Shown here one piece after another: positions 17,634 to 32,417 of a stretch of DNA of 49,631 bases. The stretch spans positions 1 through 49,631 of the forward strand of contig NZ_JABUXU010000022.1 of the NCBI RefSeq assembly GCF_014897675.1, given 5' to 3'. The stretch is from Advenella sp. FME57 (GTDB lineage Bacteria > Pseudomonadota > Gammaproteobacteria > Burkholderiales > Burkholderiaceae_B). The translations under genes and the position numbers were made by a program. The notes under the pieces were generated by a model. The model was given only the letters and a program-made list of their open reading frames with translations, did not search any database and was not told the origin of the DNA. How positions within the stretch are numbered: the stretch's first letter is position 1; every line of letters starts with the position of its first letter.

Positions 17634-17870
17634 ATGCCAAACTATGTTGCATTATTGCGCGCCGTGAGCGTTGGCGGAACCGGCAAACTGCCGATGGCCG
17701 AATTGAAAGCCATGTGTATCGCCGAGGGATTCGAAGCGGTCCAAACGTATATCGTCAGCGGTAATGTCGTTTTTTCTACCGAACTATCGGAAGTCCAGGT
17801 AAAGGCGGCGCTTGAAAAGCGGCTGCAAACCTATGCCGACAAGCCCGTTGCTGTACCGCTGGCTGAAGCG
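17634..17870 (+). pseudogene. DUF1697 family protein, C-terminally truncated
   Basis: A strong ribosome binding site (AAAAAGGAGACAGG) leads into MPNYVALLRAVSVGGTGKLP, then MAELKAMC and the hallmark QTYIVSGNVVFS. This matches the first 75 or so residues of DUF1697 proteins, which are normally about 175 residues. After about residue 78 the frame stays open to 18263, but the sequence no longer resembles the family, and the last part runs antisense through the AraC gene. The usual C-terminal half is missing. I treat it as a gene broken by a rearrangement near 17860. A truncated product could still be made. Confidence 0.65.
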
Positions 17871-18074
17871 CATGGCCCAGCGATTACATTTGCCATATCA
17901 TCCCGAAAATACGATGTAATCGGTTGCCCAGGCTCAACCAGGCCTGCAACCACGCATGCCGTTTCGGTCATCTCAATGCCCGGAGACCGCGCTATCAACT
18001 GGCCAATACAACCCTCAGGATTACCCACCTTTCCAAGTTCAAAGATGTCCCGGATGCTGCCGGTTCTGTTACGC

Positions 18075-18944
18075 CTACAGCAGCGAATCGATACCGTCAT
18101 CCATCAAATCGACCACGCGCCGGTATTCTCCGGGTGTAATCCCCAGATGCTGACGAAAAAAACGAGTGAAATGCCCCGGTGCCGAAAACCCGACATTATA
18201 GGAAATATCGCCGATTCGCATGTCCGGCTTGCAAAGCTCTGCGATCGCAGATTCCACCTTTAGCGCATTGGCGTACACGGCTGGCGTCAAATTGGTGCAG
18301 CGGCGGAACAGTTCGAAGAAATGGGCGCGAGACAACCCGCTTTCGGCCGCCAACTCCGTAAAGTTCTCGCCATAATCCAGGTTCTCGCGCATTCTGGCCA
18401 CGGCGCGTCGAATGCGTGGATCCATTGTATTGGATCGCAGGCTGGAAAATAACTGCGAAGAATCGCGAAGGGATGAGTGACGCTCGGCGGTTGCCATGAA
18501 CAGGTCGAAAATCCTGCCCTCAAGGATGTCAGATGCAATTTCCTGGGATACCAGCATCTCGGCGGCCAGCGAATTGACCAGCAGCCGCGCGCCAGCAGGT
18601 AGTGCGGCACAGGGCTTGGGAAAAAACTGTGGGTGCCCACTCACGGTGAGCGAGCGCAGCACCTTGCTCAGCCAGGCGGTTTCAAGATACAGCGCCATCA
18701 GGATGCATCGCCCCTCGCCGCTGGGCGTATGCTCATAAGCATGGGGCTCCCAGGCATTGATGAGCACAACACTGTCTTTTGTAAGCGGCTGGCTTCGTCC
18801 CTTGACCAGAAACGAACTGTCGACCCCGCTTATCTTGATCAGGGCGTGGCAATGATGGTGGGCATGAATGACCAGCGGTTTGCTCATATCGAGCAACGAT
18901 ACGCGGCCAAAGGCGCCTTGAAATATTTTAATCGCCGTTGACAT
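18075..18944 (-). CDS. AraC-family transcriptional regulator
   Basis: 289 residues from the ATG at 18942-18944 (MSTAIKIFQGAFGRVSLLDM); an upstream in-frame start at 19007 would place a hairpin inside the gene. The N-terminal part is a cupin-like sensor (IHAHHHCHALIKISGVDSSF). The C-terminal part has two helix-turn-helices, FTELAAESGLSRAHFFELFR and ISYNVGFSAPGHFTRFFRQH. It follows benE and the hmf-like operon in the same direction, so it is the likely local activator, sensing furoate or its CoA ester (inference). Confidence 0.87.
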   Translation of the reverse strand: MSTAIKIFQGAFGRVSLLDMSKPLVIHAHHHCHALIKISGVDSSFLVKGRSQPLTKDSVVLINAWEPHAYEHTPSGEGRCILMALYLETAWLSKVLRSLTVSGHPQFFPKPCAALPAGARLLVNSLAAEMLVSQEIASDILEGRIFDLFMATAERHSSLRDSSQLFSSLRSNTMDPRIRRAVARMRENLDYGENFTELAAESGLSRAHFFELFRRCTNLTPAVYANALKVESAIAELCKPDMRIGDISYNVGFSAPGHFTRFFRQHLGITPGEYRRVVDLMDDGIDSLL

Positions 18945-18978
18945 GGTACCCAAATGAGAACACCCGCCCGCGCGGGAG

Positions 18979-19003
18979 GCGACAGGCTCAGTAAGCCTGT
19001 CGC
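18979..19003. repeat. Perfect 10-bp hairpin between benE and the AraC gene
   Basis: GCGACAGGCT and AGCCTGTCGC flank a CAGTA loop. It lies after the benE stop in the leftward direction and ahead of the AraC start. There is no T run on the leftward side, only another GC-rich self-complementary stretch, so it may be a weak terminator, a processing site or an operator. Confidence 0.6.
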
Positions 19004-19045
19004 ACAATATTTGTTAATTATATCAACAATTTGGCGATTAAACGG

Positions 19046-20365
19046 CTAGGCTGCGCCTCGCTCGCCGGACACCTTGGGCAGTTTTTTGGAGCCAGATCCG
19101 GGCTCATTGCTTTTTTCCAATGTGAGCCTGTCTGCCAGCACAGAGGCGAGCACACCGAATACCAGCGCCCAGAATGGTGCACTGATACCAAGCAGGTTGA
19201 GCGAACTCATGCCAACAACAAAAGCCACAAAAGCGCCAACCTGATTACCCAGCTTTGGCCCGAATGCTCCCTGCAACGAGCTGAGCAGCACGCCAATCAT
19301 TGCCAGGCCGGCAACGACGCCGATCAGGGGTTTGGGCAACGCCATGACAAAAGGAACCGCAAGACCTGCTACCAGGCCAAACGCGCCGAACAGAACACCA
19401 TTGACAATCGTGGCTCCGTAGCGTTTGTCCTTGTCCTCTCCGGCCTGTTCAGAAGCACAAATCGCCGTCATGGGCCCGGCAATATTGGCGTTATGTCCAC
19501 CCATCATGCCGGCAACAATGCCGCCAATACCGCTGATAACTGTCATGGTATTGATAGGCGGTTTGTAACCTTCGGCCATGAGTACGCCGATGGACTGCGC
19601 ATTTTCGGCGCCGATCACCAAGGCGGCCAGTGGCACGGCAATGCCAAAGAATGCCCCTACGCTAAATACGGGAGCAGTGAACTGGGGCATGACAAAGGCC
19701 AGATCCGTTGTGCCGGTCTGCAGTCCCCCTGTGGCCACGGTAATAATCAGTCCGACAACCAGTGCGGCCAGCACCGGCGGAACACGACGCGTCAGTCGCC
19801 CAGTCAAAAAGAAAGCAAGCGCAGCCAGCCCTGCAATCAATGGTGCCGCGCTCACTGCTTCCACTGCACCAATTCCAAAACGTATCATTGCGCCGGCAAT
19901 CATCGCCATCACAATTGGCATGGGCACCCAGCGCATGATACGTCCGATCACACCCGTGACACCAAGAATGAGCACCAGCACGCCGGCCATGATAAAGGCA
20001 CCCACCGCTTCCTGATATGAAAAGGAGGCGAAGGCGGCAGCCATGATCGCGGCGCCCGGGATAGAGTATGCCCCGGTAATCGGCATACGGTAGCGCATGC
20101 CCATAAAAATACTGATGATGCCGCCCAGCAAATAGATGGCCAGCAACCATGCAACGGTCTGACCGTTGCTCAACTGTCCAGCCTGGGCTGCTCCGATCAC
20201 GATCAACGCGGGGCCGGAGCAACCAAAAATGGCGGCGACCAGGCCTGCACTTATCGAATTGAGATTCAACGCGGCAGGCAAGCCTCTTAATCCTGCAATC
20301 CACCCCGGTGCGACCGGATCTTTGTGAGCTTCCTTGTGCTCAACCGCAGATTGTCTTGTATCCAT
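19046..20365 (-). CDS. benE: Benzoate/H+ symporter family transporter (BenE type)
   Basis: 439 residues with about 12 hydrophobic membrane segments. It is recognisable as BenE by the N-terminal GLRGLPAALNLNSISAGLVA, the motif MRYRMPITGAYSIPGAAIM and the later GMMGGHNANIAGPMTAICAS. BenE proteins import benzoate-like aromatic acids with protons. A CAGGAGAC ribosome binding site precedes the ATG. It follows the hmf-like operon in the same direction after a hairpin at 20378, so it probably imports 2-furoate or a similar ring acid. The literal benzoate role is less likely because no ben or cat genes are here. Confidence 0.9.
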   Translation of the reverse strand: MDTRQSAVEHKEAHKDPVAPGWIAGLRGLPAALNLNSISAGLVAAIFGCSGPALIVIGAAQAGQLSNGQTVAWLLAIYLLGGIISIFMGMRYRMPITGAYSIPGAAIMAAAFASFSYQEAVGAFIMAGVLVLILGVTGVIGRIMRWVPMPIVMAMIAGAMIRFGIGAVEAVSAAPLIAGLAALAFFLTGRLTRRVPPVLAALVVGLIITVATGGLQTGTTDLAFVMPQFTAPVFSVGAFFGIAVPLAALVIGAENAQSIGVLMAEGYKPPINTMTVISGIGGIVAGMMGGHNANIAGPMTAICASEQAGEDKDKRYGATIVNGVLFGAFGLVAGLAVPFVMALPKPLIGVVAGLAMIGVLLSSLQGAFGPKLGNQVGAFVAFVVGMSSLNLLGISAPFWALVFGVLASVLADRLTLEKSNEPGSGSKKLPKVSGERGAA

Positions 20366-20377
20366 ACTTGTCTCCTG

Positions 20378-20404
20378 AAAGGCTCGATATTGATCGAGCC
20401 TTTT
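20378..20404. terminator. Strong hairpin between hmfE-like gene and benE
   Basis: GGCTCGAT and ATCGAGCC around ATTG, flanked by AAA and TTTT. The T run is best on the + strand, but the leftward strand also has TTTC. It may attenuate transcription from the hmf-like genes into benE or end rightward antisense transcripts. Confidence 0.65.
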
Positions 20405-20451
20405 GTTGTAACCGGCATGCCCGTGCCTTGCCGGCCGGCGTGCCGGATGTT

Positions 20452-21258
20452 TTATTTGCCCGTGAAATTGGCCTTACGCTTGCCGTGGAACGCTTCCACC
20501 CCTTCACGGAAGTCCTCTGAACTGCGCAAGCGGCTATAGCAATGACCTTCCAGTTCGATGGCGGTCGTCAGCGAAGCGTCCTCGCTGTCATTCAGTAATT
20601 TTTTGGCGGTGCGTTGTGCGAGCGGGGAAAACTTCAACAGTTCTGCCACCAATTTGTCAGTCGCCGCTTCAAGCTGATCATCCTGTACACACTCCAGCGC
20701 CAGCCCCCAGTCATACGCCTGCGGACCAGGGATGCGGCGTGAACGCATGACGATGTCCTTGGTGCGACCGATACCCACCATTTTTTGCAACCGGGCCGAG
20801 CCGCCGGAGCCTGGGATTTGCCCCAGTTTTTGCTCTGGCAGCGCATATTGCGTTGTCGTAGTCACGATACGAAAATCGCAGGCCAGCGAAATTTCAAACC
20901 CCACCCCGAAACAATAGCCGCGGTTGGCCGCGATCACCGGTTTGGAGCAACGCTCAGGCGAGGCAATATTCCAGGCCAGCTTGGAGACATGCTCGGGCGA
21001 GGCATCCAGAAAACCGCGAATATCGCCGCCGCTGGAAAAATGCTCGCCCTCCGAGCGCAAAACAATGACACGCACATCATCATTGGCGTCCAGAGCTTCG
21101 AAAACCAGACGCAATTGCTCGCGCTGCGGCATGGAAATGATATTAAATGGTGGTCGCTGCAGCACAATGTCTGCACGCTGTCCGGCCGGATCGATATCGA
21201 CCCGGAAGCCATCCAGTTGCTCCAGCAGGTCGTGCGCAGGGTGTTTAATTTGAGTCAT
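20452..21258 (-). CDS. hmfE: Enoyl-CoA hydratase/isomerase family protein, probable 2-oxoglutaroyl-CoA hydrolase (HmfE)
   Basis: 268 residues, crotonase fold. The oxyanion-hole segments are visible: SSGGDIRGFLDAS, and NRGYCFGVGFEISLACDFRI followed by LGQIPGSGGSARLQ. In the furoate pathway of Cupriavidus basilensis, HmfE is a crotonase-like hydrolase that opens the oxidised furan ring to 2-oxoglutaroyl-CoA and releases 2-oxoglutarate. Assignment here rests on membership and identical order in the operon hmfA-B-C-D-E. Alone, the sequence would only support an enoyl-CoA hydratase/isomerase family call. Confidence 0.78.
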   Translation of the reverse strand: MTQIKHPAHDLLEQLDGFRVDIDPAGQRADIVLQRPPFNIISMPQREQLRLVFEALDANDDVRVIVLRSEGEHFSSGGDIRGFLDASPEHVSKLAWNIASPERCSKPVIAANRGYCFGVGFEISLACDFRIVTTTTQYALPEQKLGQIPGSGGSARLQKMVGIGRTKDIVMRSRRIPGPQAYDWGLALECVQDDQLEAATDKLVAELLKFSPLAQRTAKKLLNDSEDASLTTAIELEGHCYSRLRSSEDFREGVEAFHGKRKANFTGK

Positions 21259-21279
21259 TCGGTAATCCTTATTTAAATT

Positions 21280-22833
21280 TCAATTAGTCAGATCGATGGC
21301 AGGCGTGCAATCGGTATCGGCTTCATACTCACCGGACACTAACTTGCGACGCAGAATTTTTCCAACGGGGGATTTGGGTAAGGCGGCCACAAAAACGTAT
21401 TCGCGCGGCCGCTTAAAGTTGGCCAGGTCAGTGGACCGGCAGTACCGGTCAAGCTCCTGCGCGTCCACTTTTGCCTGACGTTTGACGAATGCAACCACCC
21501 GGTGGCCCCATCGTTCATCCTTGACGCCGGCCACGGCAACTTCATCGACCGCAGGGTGCAGGGAAATCACAGATTCGATATCCACCGGCGAGATGTTTTC
21601 TCCACCACTGATAATCATGTCGTCCACACGTCCGCTAACGAACAGTTCGCCATCGGGATCGTAATAGCCAATATCACCAGTGAAATACCAGTGGCCGATC
21701 AGTGATTTTTCGTTGGCGTCCGGCCGATTCCAGTATCCTTCGAACGCCTCGTCGCCATCCAGATGGGCAATGATCTGCCCCTCTTCCATGGCTTGAACCC
21801 GTTCCTCCGGATTGCTGCTGCCAAGCCTGATGACACGCAAACGGCAATTGATGGCCGCGCGACCGCAGGAGCCAGCCTTGAGCCGCGCATTCTGGGTAAT
21901 TGCCATGGTGTAGACTTCAGAACTGCCATAGTGATTCACAAACAGATCGGGAGCAAACGCCTTGTCGATGCGACGCAATAGCGCTTCGGACATTGGCGCA
22001 CCGGCAAATCCTAGCTTGCGTACGCGACTGACGTCAGTAGCAGAAAATTGGGGATGCGACAGCATATCGTGATAGAGCGTGGGCACCAGGTACAGGTTGG
22101 TCACGCCTTCAGCTTCAATCAGCGACAGCGCCTGGGCCACATCGAATTTGGGCATGCACACGAAACACCCGTCAATGAGCGCCATGGAGAGCAAAGAGCG
22201 CACGCCCATGGTGTGATAAAGCGGCATGACGCCCAGGGTACATTCCCCATAGGCGTACAGGTTCTGTGCAACGTGAGCCACGGCCGCGGCGCGCTCGTGC
22301 CGATGCCTGCGCGGCACCCCCTTGGGCTTGCCCGTGGTGCCCGAGGTATAAAGCATGAGCGAGACGTCTTGCGCACTGGCGCGCGATGTGCCTTCGATCG
22401 GCGTGGCCGCCAGCAACTGTTCGAACCGCAGGCTGCCAGGCGCACCCTGACCAACGGCGATCGCACCGATCGTCGACATGGCCTTGGCGCCTCGCACCGC
22501 CTCGATGCAGGAATCGTCGTAGATGATCAATTTGGCGGTTGAGTCGACAATACAGTAATCGATCTCGTCAGCCTTGGACCGCCAGTTCAGCGGCGTTACG
22601 ATCGCGCCAAGCAACTGGCAGGCCCAGTGCACGGTCGCCATCTCCCAGCGATTCTGCATCACCACCAGCAGATGATCACCGTGTCCAAGCCCCTGTTTCT
22701 CCAGACCGCCCGCAACAGCCTTGATCGTTTCAAACCATTGCGCATAAGTCAGCCGCTTTCCCTCGGCCACCAGGGCCAGCGCGTTCGGGTTGCGTTCAAC
22801 ACTTTGGATAAAAGTGCTTCCCAGATCAAGCAT
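21280..22833 (-). CDS. hmfD: AMP-forming acyl-CoA synthetase, probable 2-furoyl-CoA synthetase (HmfD)
   Basis: 517 residues, the full ANL-family length. Core motifs are all present: the ATP loop LYTSGTTGKPKGVPRR, the NHYGSSE-type A5 motif, YFTGDIGYYDPDGELFVSGR and the hinge region VDDMIISGGENISP, with the C-terminal catalytic Lys in PKSPVGKILRR. It activates a carboxylic acid with ATP and CoA. Its start overlaps the end of the iron-sulfur subunit gene by eight bases. Operon context with a Mo-hydroxylase and a crotonase points to 2-furoate; a benzoate-type acid is the alternative. Confidence 0.8.
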   Translation of the reverse strand: MLDLGSTFIQSVERNPNALALVAEGKRLTYAQWFETIKAVAGGLEKQGLGHGDHLLVVMQNRWEMATVHWACQLLGAIVTPLNWRSKADEIDYCIVDSTAKLIIYDDSCIEAVRGAKAMSTIGAIAVGQGAPGSLRFEQLLAATPIEGTSRASAQDVSLMLYTSGTTGKPKGVPRRHRHERAAAVAHVAQNLYAYGECTLGVMPLYHTMGVRSLLSMALIDGCFVCMPKFDVAQALSLIEAEGVTNLYLVPTLYHDMLSHPQFSATDVSRVRKLGFAGAPMSEALLRRIDKAFAPDLFVNHYGSSEVYTMAITQNARLKAGSCGRAAINCRLRVIRLGSSNPEERVQAMEEGQIIAHLDGDEAFEGYWNRPDANEKSLIGHWYFTGDIGYYDPDGELFVSGRVDDMIISGGENISPVDIESVISLHPAVDEVAVAGVKDERWGHRVVAFVKRQAKVDAQELDRYCRSTDLANFKRPREYVFVAALPKSPVGKILRRKLVSGEYEADTDCTPAIDLTN

Positions 22834-23338
22834 GTGAAGTCTCCGATTTTTCAGTTTTCAATTGGTTAGCCACATCAAGGATGGCCTCTACTATCGGTGT
22901 ATATCCGGTGCACCGGCACAGGTGCCCGGACAGCATGTCGCGAACCTGCTCTTCGGTCGGGTCGGCAAGCCGCTCAAGGAAATCGACACAAGACATAAGA
23001 ATGCCGGCTGTGCAAAAGCCGCATTGCAAAGCGTGGTGTTTCTTGAAAGCCTGCTGCAGAGCACCAAGCGTGCCGTCGTGGTTGCCCAGGCCCTCGACCG
23101 TGCGCAGATCGCAACCGTCCACCTGGCGGGCCAGGCACAGGCAGGACCGCGTGGCAACGCCATCAATCTGTACCGTGCATGCGCCGCAGACACCGTGCTC
23201 ACAGCCTACATGGGTGCCAGTGGCCCCCAATTCGTGCCGGATGAAATCAGACAGCAGCATGCGGCTTTCTGCGTGACCAGTACGGGCGACACCGTTGACC
23301 GTAACGTTAATGGGATGCCTGGTACGTTGTTCCGACAT
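22826..23338 (-). CDS. hmfC: (2Fe-2S)-binding subunit of Mo hydroxylase, probable furoyl-CoA dehydrogenase small subunit (HmfC)
   Basis: 170 residues. The plant-type ferredoxin cluster is bound by C46, C51, C54 (CEHGVCGAC) and C66. The second cluster is bound by C106, C109 (CGFC) and C141, C143 (CRC). This is the standard small subunit of xanthine-oxidase-family enzymes. It passes electrons from the molybdenum centre to FAD. It lies two bases after hmfB and overlaps hmfD. Assignment as furoyl-CoA dehydrogenase follows from the operon. Confidence 0.85.
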   Translation of the reverse strand: MSEQRTRHPINVTVNGVARTGHAESRMLLSDFIRHELGATGTHVGCEHGVCGACTVQIDGVATRSCLCLARQVDGCDLRTVEGLGNHDGTLGALQQAFKKHHALQCGFCTAGILMSCVDFLERLADPTEEQVRDMLSGHLCRCTGYTPIVEAILDVANQLKTEKSETSHA

Positions 23339-23340
23339 AA

Positions 23341-24180
23341 CTAGTCCTTGTTTTTTTCACAGCGGGAAAGCGCCGTTTCGATTGTGTGCTGCCCCAGCTC
23401 GCGCACCAGGTGACGCCGGTATGCTGCCGAAGCATGCTGATCGTCCTGAGCATCCAGTTGCCAGGCCAGGTCATTCAATGTTTCCGTGAACGACGCCTGG
23501 TCATTGCGTGCCCATTGCACAACGACCGGCTTGTCGGCAACCCCGCCAATGCCCAGCCGTATCCTTTCCGGCCCCGCATCCACGGCGCATGCCACAATCG
23601 CGAAATCGCCACGGCGCAACGCAAATTCATCAAACGCGTAGCCATGTCCGGCCTTGGCCACCGGAAAGCGCACTTCGGTCACCAGTTCATCAGCCTTTCT
23701 GGCAGTGGTGAGCATGCCTTGCTGGAACTGCGCCGCATCCAGCTTGCGCGCGCCTTGCCGTGAGCGCAGCACAACCTGGCCGCCAAGGGTTGCAAGACAC
23801 AAGGGCAGCTCTGCACTGGGGTCCGCGTGCGCAATAGAACCGGCAATGGTTCCCCGATTGCGGATTTGATAGTGAGAGATAAACGGGATCGCCTCTGCCA
23901 GCATGGGGACGGCCCGGGCCAGATCGGGCCAATATTGCAGTTGGGCCTGTGTGGTGCTGGCGCCAATACACAGCATGCCTTTTTCCTGACGGACGAACTT
24001 GAGTTCCTCACACCGCGATATATCCAACAGATAAGCAGGCTGGGCCAGCCGCATGTTCAGCAGGATGACAAGCGATTGTCCGCCAGCCAGTATGCGTGCG
24101 TTTTCTCCTGCCTCATGCAGCCATTGCACTGCCTCGGAAACCTTGTCAACGCGCTTGTATTCAAATGCCAGTGGCTTCAT
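23341..24180 (-). CDS. hmfB: FAD-binding subunit of Mo hydroxylase, probable furoyl-CoA dehydrogenase middle subunit (HmfB)
   Basis: 279 residues, normal for CoxM/CutM-type FAD subunits. The N-terminal FAD motif is ARILAGGQSLVILLNMRLAQ, and the second is RNRGTIAGSIAHADPSAELP. The C-terminal CO-dehydrogenase flavoprotein domain follows with RRGDFAIVACAV. It takes electrons from the HmfC subunit to the final acceptor. The ATG overlaps the hmfA stop in an ATGA, so the two are translationally coupled. Confidence 0.85.
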   Translation of the reverse strand: MKPLAFEYKRVDKVSEAVQWLHEAGENARILAGGQSLVILLNMRLAQPAYLLDISRCEELKFVRQEKGMLCIGASTTQAQLQYWPDLARAVPMLAEAIPFISHYQIRNRGTIAGSIAHADPSAELPLCLATLGGQVVLRSRQGARKLDAAQFQQGMLTTARKADELVTEVRFPVAKAGHGYAFDEFALRRGDFAIVACAVDAGPERIRLGIGGVADKPVVVQWARNDQASFTETLNDLAWQLDAQDDQHASAAYRRHLVRELGQHTIETALSRCEKNKD

Positions 24181-27100
24181 TTTTTAATCCTCAGAAACCG
24201 CAACACGCGGTGCCAGACGCCTTCCGAGCCGCTAGCGGTGTCCTGTCCCGATGCCTGACGGCCAAGCTGCTCGAATAGTTGGCCCAGCACCATGCGGGCC
24301 GCGCCTTCGAGCATGCGCCCCCCCACAGCAGCAACCTTGCCCTGAACTTCGGCTTCATACTGGTATTTCATCAGCGTGCCTTGCTCATTGGCCTGCAGCA
24401 CAATGTCGCCGCCGCCTTCTGCGCCACCAAGCGATGAGACGCCTTTACCCTGCAAATGGAGTGAATGCGGCCGGTCGATATTGGTCAGGGAGATCGTGGC
24501 TTCATAGCGCGCCTTGATCATCCCGATGCTGATCGTCACGTCGGCGCGGTATTGGTTTTCGCCGATGCGCTGCAGTTCCCGGCAGCCTGGAATCACCTTG
24601 GCCAGCGCTTGCGGATCCATCAGTACATCGAATACTTTGTCGGGCGAAGCAGGGATCTGCGTACTTCCCGATGCGGACAACGCGTGTCCGCGTCCGGTTT
24701 TTTTGGCCGGCTTATGCACTTGCACGTCGCCAGACGGTGGCGGATCGTCAAAGCCGATAAGATCGAGCACCCGGTTCGGGGTCAGCGGCAGGCGGATATC
24801 CGGCTGTCTGCCCAACGGGCTTAATGCATCAGCCACGGCGTTCGCAATACACACGGGCGTGCTCATATTGTTGCCTTCGCCCAGGCCCTTTGCGCCCAGC
24901 GGGGTGAACGGACTGGGCGTTTCCAGATGCACAATGACAGGATCGGGCACTTCGTAGCTTGTAGGCACGAGGTAATCAGCAAAGGTACCGGACTGAAACC
25001 CACCATCGTCGCCATAGCGAAATTCCTCAAGCAAGGCGGCGCCCAATCCCTGGGCAAACGCGCCCCGGATTTGTCCGTCTGCCATGGCGGGATTCAGGAT
25101 TCTGCCTGCGTCGTGGGCGGTCACATATCGGTCAATCGTGACGCGCCCGGTCTTGCGGTCAATTTCGACCGCACAAATATCGAAGGCAAAACCATAGGCA
25201 GCCGACGTATTGACACGGTCGTCTTCAGTAGGCGCGCCCAACGACTCGGGCGTCCAGAACTCGGTCACCCTCATGCCAGGGGCCATCCCTTCAGGCAGCT
25301 CGGCAGGCGCCCAGTGAGCGCTGCTGGCCAGCCTTGCAAACGGTATTGCCTTGTCCGCCTGGCCCTTGCGAAACACTAACCCGTCTTCAAATGCCATGTC
25401 CGAAGCCTCGCCACCAAGCTGGTGGGCAGCCATGTCGGCCATTTTTGCCTTCAGCCGCGTTGCCGCCAGGTGAACCGTTCCAGCAACCGCGCCGGCAAAC
25501 CGGCTGGAGTAGTTGCCGGCGGCAACCGACCAGGCATCCTTGTCCGTATCGAAATCCACATTGACGTGGATATCCTTGGGCTGCAGACCGAACACATCTG
25601 CCACTACCTGGGCGCATACCGTGACATGGCCTTGTCCTGCCGGAGAGGATGCAATAATCACTGTCACGCTGCCCAGTAAATCGATATTGACTGTCGCCGT
25701 TGCGATGCCGCCATTCTTGGGGCCTGCCTTGGCCCGCTGCTGCGGCGTCAGCGCAACCGTGATGTAGCCCATATTGGAAATCGACGGCTCGACAATGGCC
25801 GCATAGCCAATGCCATACAGTTTTCCCTGAGCGCGCGCCTGATCCCTTCGTTGCAATAGTTCTTCAAGTCCACCCTGTGCAATGGCCGCATCCATGGCTT
25901 GCTGATAATCGCCAGAATCAAGCAGTGCGCCTGCCGCTGCCCGATACGGAAATTGATCCGCCTGGATAAAATTGCGTCGGTAGACGTCCAGCGGATCCAT
26001 CTTCAGATGCTGCGCAATCCGCTGCACCATGCGCTCAAGGGCAAAGTAAACCTGCGGGCCGCCGAATCCGCGCACCAGGCCCGAAGGCATCTTGTTCGTG
26101 ACAACCACAAGGTTGCGCACCTGCAAGTCGGCGATACGGTAAGCCCCGGTCAATATGCCGTGCATGCGGTAAAAGGTGGCTGGCTCGGGCGCCCTCAGGT
26201 AGGCACCCACGTCGTCCATCTGGTCCAGGTCAAGCGCCCGAATCCTGCCATCACTGTCAAAAGCAGCCTTGATGGTGGCTTTTCGGCCGTTTGCCGCCGT
26301 TGCCGCGCTCAGATGTTCGAGCCGGTCCTCAACCCACTTGACTGGTGCGCCACCGGCCTTGCGGGAAGCCAGGCACATCAGAACCACCGCGGTAAACACA
26401 GCTTGCTTGACGCCAAAACTGCCGCCTGAGTCAGGTGCAGAACGATGCCGCAGACGATTGCCGGGCACCTGTAGCGCCAGCGACATGACCGCGTGCATGG
26501 AAAACGGTCCCATAAAGTTCGAACAGACGTCATATCCCGCCTCGCCCGCCAGGTGCTCGGCGATCACGACGCCGCATTCGATCGGCGTACAGGAGTTGCG
26601 CGGATATTCAATATTGAGCGACAGGGTATGCTCCGCCTCGCGAAAACGCGATTCCGGGTCCCCGTAAGTGAACTGGCGCTCATGAAGCACATTCGTGCCC
26701 ACGGCTTCATGCAGTATTGCAGCGTCGTCTGACATGGCCCCGTCTATGCTGCTGACGGCCGGCAAGGCCTCAAATTCGATCTTAATACCGTCCAGGGCGT
26801 CCTCTGCCAGATAACGGTCTTCAGCAATGACAACTGCAATCGGCTCGCCAACGTAACGAACCTTGTCCATGGCCAGCGCCCACATTTCCATGGGCATTTT
26901 TACCCCATTGATGAACGGTCGCGACCATGCCCGCACGTCGTCAGGCGTGAGCACCGCCCTGACGCCGGGCATTTTTTCCGCCTGCGAAACGTCAATGGAT
27001 TTGATGCGTGCGTGAGGGTAGCTGGAGCGATACACCGCCGCATGCAGAGTGCCTGGCTTGACCGCCAGGTCGTCGCCGAAGCGACCCCTTCCGGTAAGTA

Positions 27101-27182
27101 GCGGAATGCTTTCAAACCGCTCGACCCTTTGGCCGACAAACTTGCTGGCGCCACTGACTGGCGCGCTTTCAACGGTGCCCAT
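24177..27182 (-). CDS. hmfA: Molybdopterin-binding large subunit with C-terminal CoxG-like domain, probable furoyl-CoA dehydrogenase (HmfA)
   Basis: 1001 residues from the ATG at 27180-27182, which has GGAGG six bases upstream; the frame stays open 70 codons further but that part looks non-coding. Residues about 10-130 are the a/b hammerhead (LLTGRGRFGDDLAVKPGTLH). About 140-780 is the Mo-cofactor region, with PDSGGSFGVKQAVF, RGFGGPQVYFALERM and the catalytic Glu near 759 in GAKGLGEGNN. About 826-970 is a CoxG/SRPBCC domain (STQIPASPDKVFDVLMDPQA). It would hydroxylate furoyl-CoA at C5. First gene of the operon. Confidence 0.83.
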   Translation of the reverse strand: MGTVESAPVSGASKFVGQRVERFESIPLLTGRGRFGDDLAVKPGTLHAAVYRSSYPHARIKSIDVSQAEKMPGVRAVLTPDDVRAWSRPFINGVKMPMEMWALAMDKVRYVGEPIAVVIAEDRYLAEDALDGIKIEFEALPAVSSIDGAMSDDAAILHEAVGTNVLHERQFTYGDPESRFREAEHTLSLNIEYPRNSCTPIECGVVIAEHLAGEAGYDVCSNFMGPFSMHAVMSLALQVPGNRLRHRSAPDSGGSFGVKQAVFTAVVLMCLASRKAGGAPVKWVEDRLEHLSAATAANGRKATIKAAFDSDGRIRALDLDQMDDVGAYLRAPEPATFYRMHGILTGAYRIADLQVRNLVVVTNKMPSGLVRGFGGPQVYFALERMVQRIAQHLKMDPLDVYRRNFIQADQFPYRAAAGALLDSGDYQQAMDAAIAQGGLEELLQRRDQARAQGKLYGIGYAAIVEPSISNMGYITVALTPQQRAKAGPKNGGIATATVNIDLLGSVTVIIASSPAGQGHVTVCAQVVADVFGLQPKDIHVNVDFDTDKDAWSVAAGNYSSRFAGAVAGTVHLAATRLKAKMADMAAHQLGGEASDMAFEDGLVFRKGQADKAIPFARLASSAHWAPAELPEGMAPGMRVTEFWTPESLGAPTEDDRVNTSAAYGFAFDICAVEIDRKTGRVTIDRYVTAHDAGRILNPAMADGQIRGAFAQGLGAALLEEFRYGDDGGFQSGTFADYLVPTSYEVPDPVIVHLETPSPFTPLGAKGLGEGNNMSTPVCIANAVADALSPLGRQPDIRLPLTPNRVLDLIGFDDPPPSGDVQVHKPAKKTGRGHALSASGSTQIPASPDKVFDVLMDPQALAKVIPGCRELQRIGENQYRADVTISIGMIKARYEATISLTNIDRPHSLHLQGKGVSSLGGAEGGGDIVLQANEQGTLMKYQYEAEVQGKVAAVGGRMLEGAARMVLGQLFEQLGRQASGQDTASGSEGVWHRVLRFLRIKK

Positions 27183-27665
27183 GCACTGCCTCCGAAAATA
27201 CCGTGATTGGAGCCAGTGCAGGCAAACTGACGGATCGCTCAGATTATCCCGGGGTGTTGGCTCCTGTTCATTGTTCGTCTTTTTTTCTATTGACTTTTCT
27301 ATCGGGCCAGCATGGCCAGAGATGAAAATGAACGCGTGACCGACAGTATAGGAATGGGGCATAGCAAAAGCTTTACCTGGCAGTCCGGTCAATTACCTTT
27401 GAGTCTGATTTTTTTATTCAAGTGAAATACACAGACAACGGGTGAACCGCCCTGCAGGGTATTGCGGGCTGGCGGCACAAGACGCGAGCGCTGGAAACGA
27501 AGTAACCGTTAAATTGGTGTCTCTGTATCGGCTATGGGACGCATTTGGCGTTACCAAAGTGCAAGCGCTTGCCCAACGAGCACGGGCCGCAAGATGTCAT
27601 AGCGTTATTTTCATCAATGTGGTCAAATTCATACTCATCGACACGCAACACGCTAAGATAAAACA
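27183..27665. other. Divergent promoter region between hmfA-like and DUF4202 genes
   Basis: 483 bases without a gene I can support. It includes the leader of hmfA (left) and of the DUF4202 gene (right). Open frames on either strand lack ribosome binding sites and family-like sequence. I found no convincing palindrome for the AraC or other regulator. Confidence 0.55.
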
Positions 27666-28256
27666 ATGACTTCTTCTTCCAGGCTGAAGCAGGCTTATAG
27701 CGCCTTTGATGCCGTCAACAAAACCGATCCCAACGCTTTCCACTGGCAGGAACAAGACTGGCCGCGCGAGTTATTCCTGGCCATCAAACTGACTGAATGG
27801 GTTCTGAAACTTGCCCCGAATGCGTCTGAACCCTTGCGATTGGCGGCGCGCTGCCAGCATATCGGCCGCTGGCAAATTCCCCGGCGTGAGTACCCGCAAG
27901 GACGTATTGGTTACCTGACCTGGCGCAAGGCGCTGGCCCGGCATCATGCTGACATGGCCGCGCGTATACTGGGCCAATTGGAATACGATGAGCAAACGAT
28001 TGGGCGCGTACAGATGATTGTCCTCAAACGCGGCATCAAGCAGGATGCCGATGTTCAGGTCATGGAAAATGCGCTGTGTCTGGTCTTTCTCCAGTATCAG
28101 TTCGACTCGTTCCGGCTGGATAATGAAGAGAAGATCGTGGGTATCATTCGCAAGTCGTTGCTCAAGATGGATGATGCAGGCCGCCGGCAGGCACTGATGC
28201 TGGATTACAGTTCTGCCGGGCTGGCGGTGATTAACGAGGCGCTGTCGGGGTTGTAG
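27666..28256 (+). CDS. DUF4202 family protein
   Basis: 196 residues, the normal length of the family. The conserved stretch is AARCQHIGRWQIPRREYPQG followed by RIGYLTWRKALARHHADMAA, with later ERVQMIVLKR-like text (IGRVQMIVLKRGIKQDADVQ). The spaced His and Arg residues suggest an HD-like hydrolase fold, but no function is established that I know of. No clear ribosome binding site is near the ATG. It stands alone, divergent from hmfA, and its 3' end overlaps the CoA-transferase gene by 26 bases. Confidence 0.83.
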   Translation: MTSSSRLKQAYSAFDAVNKTDPNAFHWQEQDWPRELFLAIKLTEWVLKLAPNASEPLRLAARCQHIGRWQIPRREYPQGRIGYLTWRKALARHHADMAARILGQLEYDEQTIGRVQMIVLKRGIKQDADVQVMENALCLVFLQYQFDSFRLDNEEKIVGIIRKSLLKMDDAGRRQALMLDYSSAGLAVINEALSGL

Positions 28257-29382
28257 GCAAAGCGCCCAGCACCTCTTCATTGTGCTCGCCCAGGACAGGT
28301 GGCGGTATCACCTTGGTGCTTCTTTGTCCATCAAACGAAACAGGCGGTCGCACCGTATGGAAGTCGCCCATGGTTTCGTGTCTGGCCGACACAAGAATTT
28401 GTAAATGCCGGGCCTGCGGGTCCTCCAGGGCCTCGCTGGTGTCGTACATGGGCGCATGCGGCACATCTTCCGATTCCAGGCGGCGACACCATTCGTTGCG
28501 TGAGTGCTTGGCAAATATCCCGCCCAGAATCTGGATCAATGCGTCCTGGTTCTGGATCCGTCCGTTGCGGTCACAAAAGCGCGGATCGTCAAATAGCAAG
28601 GGTTGTTCAATCGCTCTTGCCAGGCCTTGCCAGAATTTCTCGGGCGAGGACATATGCAGGGCAATCCATTTTTGATCTGCGCATTTCAAGACATAAGACT
28701 GGGAAACGCTCGGGCGACTGTACGGCCCCATGATTTCACCCGCCGAATAATAATGGGTAAAGGCATCCAGGTTGAAGTGGCTCATGGCCTCCAGCATAGA
28801 CACCTCTACCTTGCGCCCCACGCCGGTACTATTGCGCTCATGCAGGGCACCCAGAATGCCGTATGCCGCGTAAAAGCCAGTAATGGAGTCGGCCAGCGCC
28901 GGGCCCACCACGCGCGGGTTTTCCGGGTTGATGAGCAATCCCAGGAAACCACTGGCCGCTTGCGCGACTGAATCGTAGGCCGGCCGCCCTGCAGCCGGAC
29001 CGGTTGGTCCGAAACCACTGATTGAGCAGTAAATCAGTCCCGGATTGATTTTGCGCAGCCGCTCTTCGCCCACGTTAAGTCTTTCGGCCGCGCCCGGACG
29101 AAAGTTCTGAATATATACGTCTGCCGTACGGACCAACTCATCGAAGGCGGCCAGATCGTCAGCCTCCTTGGTATTGAGTGTGATACTGCGCTTGTTGCGA
29201 TTGTATGTCTGAAAGTGTGGACTATACAGGCCGCCTTTGAAGGCACGAAACGGATCTCCCGTGCCTGGCTGCTCGATCTTGATGACATCTGCCCCAAGGT
29301 CTCCCAAGAGCATGCCCGCTGCAGGACCCGTAATGAACGTGCCTTGCTCCAGGACACGAATGCCGTTAAGTACTTTGATCAT
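28231..29382 (-). CDS. CaiB/BaiF (class III) CoA-transferase
   Basis: 383 residues, family length. N-terminal hallmark GMLLGDLGADVIKIEQPGTG (residues 23-42), RNKRSITLN at 62-70, and the catalytic Asp165 in GPALADSITGFYAAYG. These enzymes move CoA between carboxylic acids through an aspartyl-CoA anhydride. It is the last gene of a leftward operon behind a citrate-synthase-like lyase, so it probably forms the CoA ester that the lyase cleaves. Acceptor acid unknown. Confidence 0.92.
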   Translation of the reverse strand: MIKVLNGIRVLEQGTFITGPAAGMLLGDLGADVIKIEQPGTGDPFRAFKGGLYSPHFQTYNRNKRSITLNTKEADDLAAFDELVRTADVYIQNFRPGAAERLNVGEERLRKINPGLIYCSISGFGPTGPAAGRPAYDSVAQAASGFLGLLINPENPRVVGPALADSITGFYAAYGILGALHERNSTGVGRKVEVSMLEAMSHFNLDAFTHYYSAGEIMGPYSRPSVSQSYVLKCADQKWIALHMSSPEKFWQGLARAIEQPLLFDDPRFCDRNGRIQNQDALIQILGGIFAKHSRNEWCRRLESEDVPHAPMYDTSEALEDPQARHLQILVSARHETMGDFHTVRPPVSFDGQRSTKVIPPPVLGEHNEEVLGALPTTPTAPR

Positions 29383-29404
29383 GGTAAAACTCCATCAGGG
29401 TATG

Positions 29405-30214
29405 CTAGGCGTTATCGGGGGTAAAGCCCTCGGGCAACTGACCATCGTAAACGTAATTGCGTGTCGCCTGATACGACAAGGCAAAACCGATAGGTTTCTG
29501 GAACTCCTCTGTCAGATGGCCGATAAGACCTGCCGTACGAGCCAGAATCGGCACGCCTCGCAACGCGGTGATCGGAAAACCCACGCCCAGCAGGACGGCT
29601 GGAATGGCCGCAGATACATTGAGCATGAGGCGCTTTCCGACAACGTCTGGAATCACTTTTTCCACCGCATCGGCTATGTGCACATATGTCATATCAGCCC
29701 CGGCCCGCTCAGCCACAGCGAACAGCGCAGTCACACGCGGGTCGCGCGCTTTGTGCAGCGGGTGGCCGTAACCCGGGATGGCGCGCTTGTCGGCACGGTA
29801 CTCGCCCACCACCTGCCTGGCTGCTTCAACATAGTCTTTGCTCTGGCCGGCACGAGTACGAATATCTTCAAGAAAAATGCCGCTGGTTTCAGAAGCCCCG
29901 AGAATGACCGAGCCACAACCTAGTATTCCTGCCGCCACGGCGCCCTGCAAGGCGTCGGGTGCGGCGGCCAGTGTCATGCGACTGGCCTGAACGCTGGGGA
30001 CCAGGCCGTGTTCCGCAATGGCCACCAGGGTGGCATTTAACACTGCGGTTGCTGCCGCGGTTGGCGGCTGTCCCGTGACCAGCAAATGAAAATAGTCTGT
30101 GAAAGACATATTGCCGATCAGATCGACGGCAAGGTCTTTCCCCCTGACGACAATGGTCTCGGCGTTAGAGGTGCAGATGGCTGAATGGGGAATGGTTTCT
30201 TTACCGATTTTCAT
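29405..30214 (-). CDS. Citrate synthase family protein, probable citryl-CoA-lyase-like enzyme
   Basis: 269 residues from the ATG at 30212-30214 (MKIGKETIPHSAICTSNAET); the frame is open to 30289 but the added residues are basic and unlike the family. The active-site region is IPGYGHPLHKARDPRV with H151 and H154, equivalent to the catalytic His stretch of citrate synthase. It is much shorter than a full citrate synthase (about 430), as in stand-alone citryl-CoA lyases. It probably cleaves a 3-hydroxy-3-carboxyacyl-CoA to an oxo acid and acyl-CoA. It lies with a class III CoA-transferase 22 bases downstream. Confidence 0.82.
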   Translation of the reverse strand: MKIGKETIPHSAICTSNAETIVVRGKDLAVDLIGNMSFTDYFHLLVTGQPPTAAATAVLNATLVAIAEHGLVPSVQASRMTLAAAPDALQGAVAAGILGCGSVILGASETSGIFLEDIRTRAGQSKDYVEAARQVVGEYRADKRAIPGYGHPLHKARDPRVTALFAVAERAGADMTYVHIADAVEKVIPDVVGKRLMLNVSAAIPAVLLGVGFPITALRGVPILARTAGLIGHLTEEFQKPIGFALSYQATRNYVYDGQLPEGFTPDNA

Positions 30215-30343
30215 AAAGTTCCAATGAGAAGCATTCAGTCGGCTACGCATGCAGGCACGCGCTTGTCGCCGAATAAACGCATTGAACATATTAGGTTTTG
30301 CTAAAAGTTTTCATCGTCATCGATGTTTTAAGCACAGGGCATC

Positions 30344-31408
30344 TTAGGCGGGCCGCTGCCCTTCAAAAGCGGCTTGCAACAACGTGCGTATGCCATCGCG
30401 TTCAATCGGACGCGGGTTCCAATAGGGTGTGGCAATTGCGATATCGGCCGCCCTGTCCACATCGCTGTCACGCATCCCAATGTCTTGCAAACCCATCGGC
30501 GCACCCAGCGATTGAGCCAGATCGTATAAGGCGCCGGCAGCGCAAACGCCGTCCTGGCCCAGAGCGCGGGCAATCCGTTGCATGGCCTCTGGCGCGGCAG
30601 GCGCGTTATAGGCAATCGCGTGCGGCAAGACAATGGAGTGAGTCTGGGCATGCGGCAGATCAAAGCTGCCGGCCACGGTATGGCAAAGCTTGTGATGCAA
30701 AGCCATGCCTGCGCCGGCAAGCACCATGCCACAAAGCCAGGCGCCATACAGGCATTGGCTCCTTGCGGCAAGCGAGCTGGTGTTCGGGCTCAGTTGCCGC
30801 AAGCCGCTGGCCATGGCGCGTATACCCTCTTCTGCCATTAATGCCAGCACCGGGTTTCCGTCCTTGGCATACAATCCTTCCGCAGCATGGGCAATGGCGT
30901 TCATGCCGCTGACGACAGAGACAGCAAAAGGCAGTTTCAAGGTCAGCGATGGGTCATAGATGACGGTGCGCGGCAAGGCTCGCGGATCTTTACCGGTTTT
31001 TTTGATGCCGTTCTCGGTGATGCCATAGATGCTGGTCATCTCCGAGCCTGAATAGGTGCTCGGCACTGCCAGGATGGGTAAACCATTTTCAATGGCCAGC
31101 GCCTTGGCCAATCCTATCGTGGAACCACCGCCGATTGCCACAATACAGTCGGCCTGCATTGTGCGCGCTGCATCTTGCGCATCGCGTACCGCAGCAACGG
31201 GCACATGCATGACTGCCTGATCAAAGATGCCAGCGGCGCACTCACCCAGGGCATCAACCGCCCGTTGAGCCAACGTCCGCTGGCGCGCCGTGCAAAGCAC
31301 CAGCACTTTGCGCGCGCCAAGCAGGCCGGCTTCAGCTTTCAGCACGGTCCAGGCATCGCTGCCAAATACCACTCGTGCCTGTTGGGCGGTGTATAGAAAC
31401 GTATGCAT
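30344..31408 (-). CDS. Iron-containing alcohol dehydrogenase, maleylacetate-reductase-like
   Basis: 354 residues from the ATG at 31406-31408, four bases after the Bug stop; a GTG at 31429 would overlap it. The N-terminus MHTFLYTAQQARVVFGSDAW and GGGS (residues 93-96) in AIGGGSTIGLAKALAIENG match maleylacetate reductases, as do PTYSGSEMTSIYGITE-like text and the His-rich HHKLCHTVAGSFDLPHAQTH metal or substrate site. These enzymes reduce maleylacetate to 3-oxoadipate with NADH. No ring-cleavage dioxygenase is in the window, so the true substrate may be a different oxo or hydroxy acid. Confidence 0.85.
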   Translation of the reverse strand: MHTFLYTAQQARVVFGSDAWTVLKAEAGLLGARKVLVLCTARQRTLAQRAVDALGECAAGIFDQAVMHVPVAAVRDAQDAARTMQADCIVAIGGGSTIGLAKALAIENGLPILAVPSTYSGSEMTSIYGITENGIKKTGKDPRALPRTVIYDPSLTLKLPFAVSVVSGMNAIAHAAEGLYAKDGNPVLALMAEEGIRAMASGLRQLSPNTSSLAARSQCLYGAWLCGMVLAGAGMALHHKLCHTVAGSFDLPHAQTHSIVLPHAIAYNAPAAPEAMQRIARALGQDGVCAAGALYDLAQSLGAPMGLQDIGMRDSDVDRAADIAIATPYWNPRPIERDGIRTLLQAAFEGQRPA

Positions 31409-31412
31409 CACG

Positions 31413-32417
31413 TCAGTTGACCTTTGCACCCGATTTTTTTACCAGTTCAGCCCACTTTTCAATTTCGGCCGCTTCGAAACCGGCCAGATCCCGGACAGAT
31501 TCACCGCCTGGCTCTACGCCCTGGTTCTTGAGCTTGGCAGCCAGATCGGGATCGGCCAGCGCCACGTCAGCCGCCTTTTTCAACTTGGCCATGACAGGCT
31601 CGGGCGTGCCTGCCGGCGCGTACATCATGAACCACGCAACCAGATCGAATTCGCTATCGGTCTGCTCTGCAATAGAGGGCACGTCAGGCGCTGCGATACT
31701 GCGCTGGCTGCTGGATACGCCAATAGCCCGCAGCTTGCCTGCCTTCACATGGGGCAATACCGCGGCGGGGTGGTAAAACATGAACTGCACTTGCCCGGAC
31801 ATTACGTCCTGTAAAGCCATGCTGCCTTCCTTGTAAGGCACATGCAGCATGGTGCCGCCCAACCGGTCTTTCAGCAGATCACCGGCGAGATGCCCCGACG
31901 TGCCGCTGCCAGCAGACGAGAACGTGATGCCTGGCTCCGTGGCCGCTGCTTCGCCCAGGTCCTTGACCGTGTGATAGGCAGAGCTGCCGCTTACCACCAG
32001 AAACGTCGGCGTTTGTCCCACAAAAGCAATGGGCTCGAAATCTGTCTCGGGATCATAACCACGTTTTGAGTACAGTTCCTTGTTGATCGCATGCGTGCCG
32101 ACCGTACCCATGACGATCGTATAGCCATCGGGCGCGCTTCGGCTTACCTGCGCGGTCCCGATCGTTCCGCCTGCGCCAGCCTTGTTCTCGATAATGATCG
32201 GTTGCCCAAGGACTTTGGACATTCTGTCCGAAAGCAGCCTGGCAATCGTGTCGGTCGTCGTGCCCGCGCCGAACGGTACGATCATGCGCACCGCTTTGGC
32301 GGGATATTCCGCAGTCTGAGCCGAGGCCGCCGCGCACAACAATGGCGCACAAACCAGCGCGGCAAGCAGGCCTCGCGCAGCGCGACCAAAGTGTGCATCT
32401 TTAAGAGCATTCATCAT
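31413..32417 (-). CDS. Tripartite tricarboxylate transporter substrate-binding protein (Bug family)
   Basis: 334 residues. The signal peptide is long (about 33 residues, with LLAALVCAPLLCAAASAQTA). The mature part shows YPAKAVRMIVPFGAGTTTDT, IIENKAGAGGTIG, SAPDGYTIVMG and MLHVPYKEGSMALQD. It is the first gene of the leftward operon with the maleylacetate-reductase-like, lyase-like and CoA-transferase genes, and divergent from LysR at 32563. It likely captures the carboxylic acid that the operon degrades. Confidence 0.92.
   Translation of the reverse strand: MMNALKDAHFGRAARGLLAALVCAPLLCAAASAQTAEYPAKAVRMIVPFGAGTTTDTIARLLSDRMSKVLGQPIIIENKAGAGGTIGTAQVSRSAPDGYTIVMGTVGTHAINKELYSKRGYDPETDFEPIAFVGQTPTFLVVSGSSAYHTVKDLGEAAATEPGITFSSAGSGTSGHLAGDLLKDRLGGTMLHVPYKEGSMALQDVMSGQVQFMFYHPAAVLPHVKAGKLRAIGVSSSQRSIAAPDVPSIAEQTDSEFDLVAWFMMYAPAGTPEPVMAKLKKAADVALADPDLAAKLKNQGVEPGGESVRDLAGFEAAEIEKWAELVKKSGAKVN

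Follow-up and report, generated by a model that had tools for sequence, protein, structure and literature searches.

A predicted furoate-catabolic hmfABCDE operon with a BenE-family transporter and an AraC-family regulator in Advenella sp. FME57

Lignocellulose processing encounters furan acids and aldehydes both as inhibitors and as feedstocks; 2-furoic acid is a by-product of plant sugars. Here we describe a seven-gene operon, predicted to serve the catabolism of this acid, in Advenella sp. FME57; the window analyzed is the entire contig NZ_JABUXU010000022.1 (C32; 49,631 bp) of the 4.74-Mb genome. A 2019 paper described the combination of hmfABCDE with benE and an AraC gene in Pseudomonas pseudoalcaligenes CECT 5344, in which the same enzymes and BenE accompany growth on furoate and in which, in an evolved strain, disruption of araC abolishes growth on furfural, a mutated AraC being needed (PMC6678421). 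The Hmf proteins of Cupriavidus basilensis HMF14 (ADE20399 to ADE20403, accessions given via PMC6678421) are 64, 59, 77, 61, and 80% identical to those of CECT 5344 for HmfA through HmfE, respectively (PMC6678421). For P. umsongensis GO16, a 2025 study names araC as the regulator of the lower-pathway genes, after Donoso 2021, and its table includes a putative lactone-opening gene, hyd.

With a probability of roughly 0.9, we read the Advenella gene set as a furoate-catabolic operon, one that would very probably let this soil bacterium take up 2-furoic acid and convert it to a normal metabolite. Gene sets of this kind are already known, and finding one in Advenella is annotation; what a specialist can use beyond that are the operator, the BenE branch, and the reading of the CoxG domain.

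Gene content and orthology

The operon occupies positions 18075 to 27182 of the minus strand, exactly from the araC stop to the hmfA start, as the first-pass annotation had placed it, and its seven genes form a single unit in the order hmfA-B-C-D-E-benE-araC, all open, codirectional, and with the domains expected of a furoate-type operon carrying BenE and AraC. The molybdenum subunit of furoyl-CoA dehydrogenase, with a fused CoxG domain, is encoded by hmfA (24177 to 27182; Pfam Ald_Xan_dh_C, MoCoBD_1, MoCoBD_2, and COXG), which starts at 27182 with an ATG preceded by GGAGG. It is followed by hmfB, the flavin adenine dinucleotide (FAD) subunit (23341 to 24180; FAD_binding_5 and CO_deh_flav_C), hmfC, the [2Fe-2S] subunit (22826 to 23338; Fer2 and Fer2_2), hmfD, the furoyl-CoA synthetase (21280 to 22833; AMP-binding), and hmfE, a crotonase-fold 2-oxoglutaroyl-CoA hydrolase (20452 to 21258; ECH_1). 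The last two genes are benE, a predicted furoate/H+ symporter of the hmf-linked BenE branch (19046 to 20365; TIGR00843, PF03594, and tree), and araC, a predicted furoate-responsive activator of the operon (18075 to 18944; AraC_binding and HTH_18), for which the start at 19007 in the list of open reading frames (ORFs) is probably too long and the ATG at 18944 is preferred. From hmfA to hmfE, neighboring genes overlap or lie at most 21 bp apart, and the hmfE-benE and benE-araC gaps measure 86 and 101 bp, the latter being the largest in the operon. The G+C content (0.578, versus 0.557 for the window) gives no sign of recent foreign origin.

The five enzymes are, by identity, HmfA to HmfE. Against the cluster of Cupriavidus pinatubonensis, one of the Cupriavidus and Paraburkholderia clusters compared, identities are 66, 57, 73, 64, and 79%, about equal to those published between HMF14 and CECT 5344, which argues for the Hmf furoate pathway, as do the contiguous, codirectional arrangement of the five genes and their orthology to enzymes of the described type. 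HmfA is 65 to 68% identical to proteins on 24 Burkholderiales plasmid records, and the four annotated examples among these carry LysR and MFS genes (4/4), UbiD/UbiX and GMC genes (3/4), and XdhC (2/4). Among HmfA matches with E values up to 1e-100 in 101 related genomes, 15 copies in 14 genomes are at least 62% identical and all others at most 38%; the genome of FME57 itself has one full-length copy, and HmfA of the best named relative, Advenella sp. S44, is 100% identical. A benzoyl-type or CO-type hydroxylase is ruled out by curated model cutoffs: HmfA scores 354.1 bits with the model for the 4-hydroxybenzoyl-CoA reductase alpha subunit (TIGR03194; cutoff, 994.55) and 410.5 bits with that for CoxL of aerobic CO dehydrogenase (TIGR02416; cutoff, 991.15). 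The first-pass annotation had named low Hmf identity, with best matches to such hydroxylases, as grounds for abandoning its assignment, and the comparison came out the other way. The solved protein closest to HmfD by sequence is a 4-chlorobenzoate CoA ligase. All five enzymes are orthologous to those of hmf clusters that contain UbiD/UbiX and GMC oxidase genes, which supports furoate as the substrate.

Gene content, orthology, operon layout, and the conserved repeat described below form the sequence basis for the following scheme, in which substrate, transport direction, effector, DNA binding, read-through into araC, and the enzymatic steps are predicted, the last by analogy with the published Hmf pathway (PMC6678421). 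BenE would import 2-furoate with protons and HmfD would convert it to 2-furoyl-CoA, which the molybdenum enzyme HmfABC would hydroxylate at C5; the product would tautomerize, the lactone would open, and HmfE would release 2-oxoglutarate into the tricarboxylic acid cycle. AraC, produced from the last gene of the operon, would sense furoate or furoyl-CoA, bind a direct repeat of 20-bp period abutting the -35 position, and activate the promoter before hmfA, so that the presence of araC in its own operon would result in positive feedback of the operon on itself.

Transporter, regulator, and operator

To place this arrangement, we surveyed the best 80 of 551 relatives from a window-seeded alignment (named loci), a sample in which the near-identical S44 is present and relatives of the window are overrepresented; class counts use the 63 loci with at least 4.5 kb before and at least 7.5 kb behind hmfA. 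An AraC orthologue is present in 42 of these and a LysR of the Cupriavidus/Burkholderia type in 12, with BenE in 19, MFS transporters in 29, and ABC importers in 8. In this biased sample the commonest class is AraC with BenE and without UbiD or GMC (17/63), followed by AraC with MFS without upper-pathway genes (11) and LysR with MFS with them (10), and the BenE/AraC arrangement recurs in Alpha- and Gammaproteobacteria. The first-pass annotation had correctly contrasted the operon with Cupriavidus, in which the relatives examined have LysR and MFS genes, and had proposed a variant furoate module: a furoate module with BenE and AraC it is, but it is not novel, having been described in CECT 5344 in 2019 (PMC6678421) and representing a main type of hmf locus, of which the Advenella operon is a further example.

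In a FastTree phylogeny of HmfA (93 rows, 75 with known neighbors), the BenE state changes at least five times, and both BenE loci and UbiD/GMC loci occur in the alpha and beta parts. The nearest HmfA without BenE, that of Paenalcaligenes, has an MFS gene in the benE slot, followed by the same AraC, an arrangement that suggests exchange of the transporter and retention of the rest. An association of BenE with a missing upper pathway was considered and dropped: UbiD or GMC genes occur in 0 of the 19 BenE loci versus 22 of the 44 others, but the tree offers only four independent contrasts, which leaves the association unsupported.

The benE product belongs to the BenE family (TIGR00843, 231.7 bits versus a cutoff of 203.4; PF03594, 277.7 versus 27) and groups with hmf-linked BenE proteins rather than with others (the CECT 5344 BenE is not in the set). 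Proteobacterial hmf-linked BenE proteins are at least 63% identical to a linked query, those of three haloarchaea and Priestia 44 to 51%, and unlinked ones at most 38%. A quick tree of 68 rows unites all 28 linked sequences from Proteobacteria, which were drawn from hmf loci by design so that the grouping is partly a sampling effect, in one branch (Shimodaira-Hasegawa-like approximate likelihood ratio test, 99); the three haloarchaeal rows are its sister (92), and Priestia and three unlinked sequences attach outside these. When plasmids were searched with BenE alone, the result agreed with this branch: 5 of 92 records match at 60 to 80% identity and 87 below 60%, and, among the matches listed (60 of 92), all three above 60% sit in hmf loci and the next, at 45.8%, lies beside an HmfA-like gene. 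A second BenE in the FME57 genome (C21:390717) falls in the other branch. These sequence relationships support a role of the operon BenE as a furoate transporter, and the branch would predict furoate transport from sequence.

Alignment of the DNA before hmfA in five Alcaligenaceae loci reveals one strongly conserved block, which contains the repeat GACTCAAAGGTAA / GACTGCCAGGTAA at 27405 to 27373 and TATACT at 27350 to 27345. We predict the repeat (27373 to 27405, minus strand), a tandem direct repeat GACTN4GGTAA-N7-GACTN4GGTAA with a 20-bp period that is conserved in the five training loci, to be the operator of AraC. It lies about 190 bp before hmfA, and its proximal half-site abuts the -35 position of the predicted hmfA promoter, whose putative -10 box, TATACT (27345 to 27350, minus strand), was placed by alignment and column information. 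Conserved tandem half-sites beside a promoter would put the regulator among AraC-family activators with a direct-repeat operator at -35, the layout of XylS/BenR-type activators. A general sigma-70 scan returned four sites versus 5.7 expected, and the -10 box of hmfA was not among them. In the sensor domain of hmf-linked AraC proteins, histidines and a cysteine (HAH..CH, H.Y.H) are kept in at least 90% of 58 rows and are possibly a metal- or acid-binding site.

The repeat was scored at 18 positions in the 92 of 93 rows with enough upstream DNA, a match being at most five mismatches at exactly 20-bp spacing. Outside the training set, it matches in 37 of 44 AraC-linked loci (mean, 3.66 mismatches), versus none of 15 LysR-linked loci (mean, 7.47). 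Spacings of 14 to 19 and 21 to 30 bp match only 1 to 14 of the 44, and the reversed motif matches none; loci with an undecided regulator match in 14 of 29 cases, one of which (L130) is a training locus. Matches span Burkholderiales, Aromatoleum, several alphaproteobacterial families, and Halomonadaceae. The consensus over 55 sites, in whose alignment two rows (L014 and L085) stand in another register than in the locus test, is approximately TSAGAC(T)N4GGTAA-N7-GACN5GGNAW, and beyond the bases adjacent to the repeat, marked information occurs only at +56 (A) and +60 (T) from the site start, the predicted -10 box.

On the genome scale, the FME57 genome holds one exact site and one with three mismatches, the reversed control giving four; because there is a single exact site, the regulator looks dedicated to the hmf operon. 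The exact consensus occurs once in 398 Pseudomonadota genomes, in the Advenella window, a result that speaks to specificity only. In the 101 relatives, 26 sites have at most two mismatches, of which 9 precede hmfA (five in training loci, four new) and the remaining 17 equal the reversed-pattern control (16); at no more than one mismatch, seven of eight sites precede hmfA, two of them new. The scan was not blind for five of the nine (window, S44/G009, G006, G003, and G054). Outside the training loci, three of five hmfA copies with a detected AraC have a site, as does one of five without. Retention of the repeat suggests that a DNA switch before the operon has been kept in many related bacteria, and a predicted furoate-responsive operator present across Alpha-, Beta-, and Gammaproteobacteria could serve as a part for furan-acid biosensors. 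By the terms searched, PMC6678421 does not mention an operator, and none is named in the titles of related papers among those listed; its novelty is not established.

Electron acceptor, accessory steps, and rival explanations

Residues 835 to 980, approximately, of HmfA form a CoxG (SRPBCC) domain (24243 to 24680, minus strand) followed by a basic tail. Pfam PF06240 and the fold of an AlphaFold model of residues 800 to 1001 (mean predicted local distance difference test score, 86.8) both identify it as a CoxG protein; the best Foldseek match is 2pcs (37% identity), and others include 2ns9 and 8uds, the CoxG of Mycobacterium smegmatis, whose title mentions a lipid-anchoring C terminus. CoxG is fused to HmfA in 91 of 93 rows, the exceptions being L071, with 65% of the domain, and Geobacillus, where it is a separate gene (structure, PDB 2pcs). 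Over its last 22 residues, HmfA has a net charge of at least +3 in 68 of 80 rows (L071 excluded), and the amphipathic moment of this tail is only modestly above that of shuffles (a median of 21.5% of shuffles are as high), the positive charge being the firmer feature. A 2026 paper describes CoxG as a quinone-binding membrane protein that links CO dehydrogenase to the respiratory chain by passing on its electrons (PMC13240472). By analogy, furoyl-CoA dehydrogenase might dock at the membrane and reduce quinone directly, the CoxG domain and basic amphipathic tail of HmfA replacing a separate CoxG, a proposal that we put forward tentatively and at somewhat less than even odds. If true, it names the electron acceptor of the pathway for the whole Hmf family and not only for the window.

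By UbiD, UbiX, GMC, and aldehyde dehydrogenase (ALDH) references, no upper-pathway gene of the 5-hydroxymethylfurfural (HMF) type adjoins the operon, which bears out an observation made in the first-pass annotation; an iron alcohol dehydrogenase (30344 to 31429), 3.2 kb upstream, belongs to another gene set. The single UbiD of the FME57 genome shares 29.5% identity with the HmfF-type reference, and of the seven GMC loci there, six match the HmfH-type reference (best, 34.3%). Known upper-pathway loci match the UbiD and GMC references at 53% or more, bar one UbiD hit at 35%, and we rejected the FME57 proteins as HmfF and HmfH on these values. The best GMC gene (contig C20, L160) adjoins an ALDH that shares 42.9% identity with its hmf-linked counterpart in L008. 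This pair is the nearest thing to an upper pathway in the genome, and a furfural route there is conceivable.

For the lactone-opening step, we clustered 601 unassigned ORFs near hmfA from 104 loci (duplicates included) and found no common accessory lactonase of the hyd kind, no family occurring in more than nine loci; the largest are SDR-like proteins and ABC permeases (nine loci each), followed by an alpha/beta-hydrolase (by eye, six loci). Three haloarchaeal plasmids (L198, L199, and L200) carry the hmf-linked type of BenE beside HmfA/B/C-like genes and two ligases, in a shared set of BenE, DUF6282, thioesterase, ligase, HmfB/C/A-like genes, ligase, and XdhC that is adjoined by rdfA and an SMC-like gene; DUF6282 and the thioesterase are present and HmfE is not (Pfam on L198 only). 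Possibly this set encodes a furoate pathway of archaea in which DUF6282 would act as the lactonase. In Proteobacteria, HmfE might perform both hydrolyses, which stays an idea because haloarchaeal HmfA is only 40.7% identical.

Several points weigh against assigning the operon to furoate catabolism. Its function in Advenella is predicted from sequence, and the comparison drew on Cupriavidus relatives in place of the HMF14 proteins. The lactone-opening step is without an assigned gene at the Advenella locus and in PMC6678421, and the hmf loci of the window and of S44, unlike those of sister species, have no XdhC gene. The operator is absent from 7 of the 44 AraC-linked loci, including the Pseudomonas locus L074, and these 44 are not independent, several being near-identical Rhizobiaceae; outside the training loci, only 4 of 10 hmfA copies in the 101 relatives have a site. 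Wild-type CECT 5344 grew only after a long lag and an araC point mutation (PMC6678421).

The breadth of the BenE and AMP-ligase families, the lack of adjacent HMF-type genes, and the basis of the substrate assignment just mentioned would also suit degradation of another (hetero)aromatic acid by Hmf-like enzymes, for example a substituted furoate, thiophene-2-carboxylate, or pyrrole-2-carboxylate. We regard this as very unlikely, given that each of the five proteins has close counterparts in loci with furan upper-pathway genes, that both BenE and UbiD/GMC loci are found in either part of the HmfA tree, and that the same enzyme set accompanies furoate growth in CECT 5344 (PMC6678421). The pathway for another ring acid that the first-pass annotation had offered as an alternative thus gives way, the five co-orthologous proteins being the same set as in loci with decarboxylase genes for 2,5-furandicarboxylic acid; relaxed use of furoate analogues would be compatible with furoate catabolism. 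That BenE is an ordinary benzoate transporter, in the operon by chance, is unlikely: it passes the generic BenE model, but FME57 has a second BenE, from the other branch, whereas the operon copy sits where all 28 proteobacterial rows are hmf linked (partly by construction) and where the three plasmid matches above 60% among those listed also lie in hmf loci.

Most unlikely, in our estimate, is a decayed or silent copy in which loss of the maturation gene xdhC has left the enzyme inactive. An XdhC gene stands divergent from hmfA in three close relatives (L128, L129, and L130) and is missing from the window and S44, and in CECT 5344 a mutation in araC was needed before the silent cluster became active (PMC6678421). 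Every frame is open, however, and the operator repeat is intact; XdhC lies within 11 kb of hmfA (our own threshold) in only 6 of 80 named loci, so that linkage is not the rule. Only one XdhC is present in FME57 and likewise in G009, a genome of the same genus that we take to be S44, both being of the other Advenella type; that of FME57 (C4), adjoined by a MocA-like gene, is 73 to 76% identical to the hmf-linked type and should serve HmfABC if the latter is active.

Flanking genes and comparison with described loci

Alignable DNA extends over 18074 to 27415 in one Advenella relative (78.8%; L128) and over 18081 to 27419 in another (77.6%; L129). In both it begins at the araC stop and ends a few bases upstream of the operator, which marks the cassette as a self-contained, sharply bounded unit. 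At the araC end lies a truncated DUF1697 gene (17634 to 18263, plus strand): family similarity is confined to the first 75 residues, and the remaining frame overlaps araC at its 3' end, which perhaps records an insertion or deletion at this edge of the cassette. At the other end, a DUF4202 gene (27666 to 28256, plus strand) occupies the place taken by XdhC in L128 to L130 and separates the operon from a further catabolic set (28231 to 32417, minus strand) of a type III CoA-transferase, a citryl-CoA-lyase-like protein, the iron alcohol dehydrogenase, and a tripartite-tricarboxylate (Bug) binding protein; a LysR gene (32563 to 33474, plus strand) lies beyond it. The set is common to S44 and was not seen adjoining hmf in L128 to L130. 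Five ORFs in the window (at 9333, 14431, 31413, 35277, and 45328) are, by eye, Bug-type binding proteins.

Three described or sequenced systems come closest to the Advenella operon. Pseudomonas pseudoalcaligenes (Ectopseudomonas oleovorans) CECT 5344 has the same five enzymes, benE downstream, and an AraC-family regulator, and the strain does not assimilate HMF, much as the Advenella locus is without adjacent HMF genes; its island, however, includes the XdhC-like psfD, which forms a separate module with araC (PMC6678421), whereas in Advenella araC stands directly behind benE with no XdhC gene at the locus. Paenalcaligenes niemegkensis (L086) is similar in HmfA (73%, the nearest outside the BenE group) and in an AraC (62%) downstream of the transporter, and differs in the MFS gene in the benE slot and an XdhC after araC. 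Cupriavidus basilensis HMF14 (Koopman 2010) and the Cupriavidus relatives L007, L010, and L058 share HmfA-E orthologues in the same order, but these relatives, unlike Advenella, combine an MFS transporter with a divergently oriented LysR gene, to which L010 and L058 add UbiD/UbiX and GMC genes and L007 adds XdhC, none of which is present at the Advenella locus.

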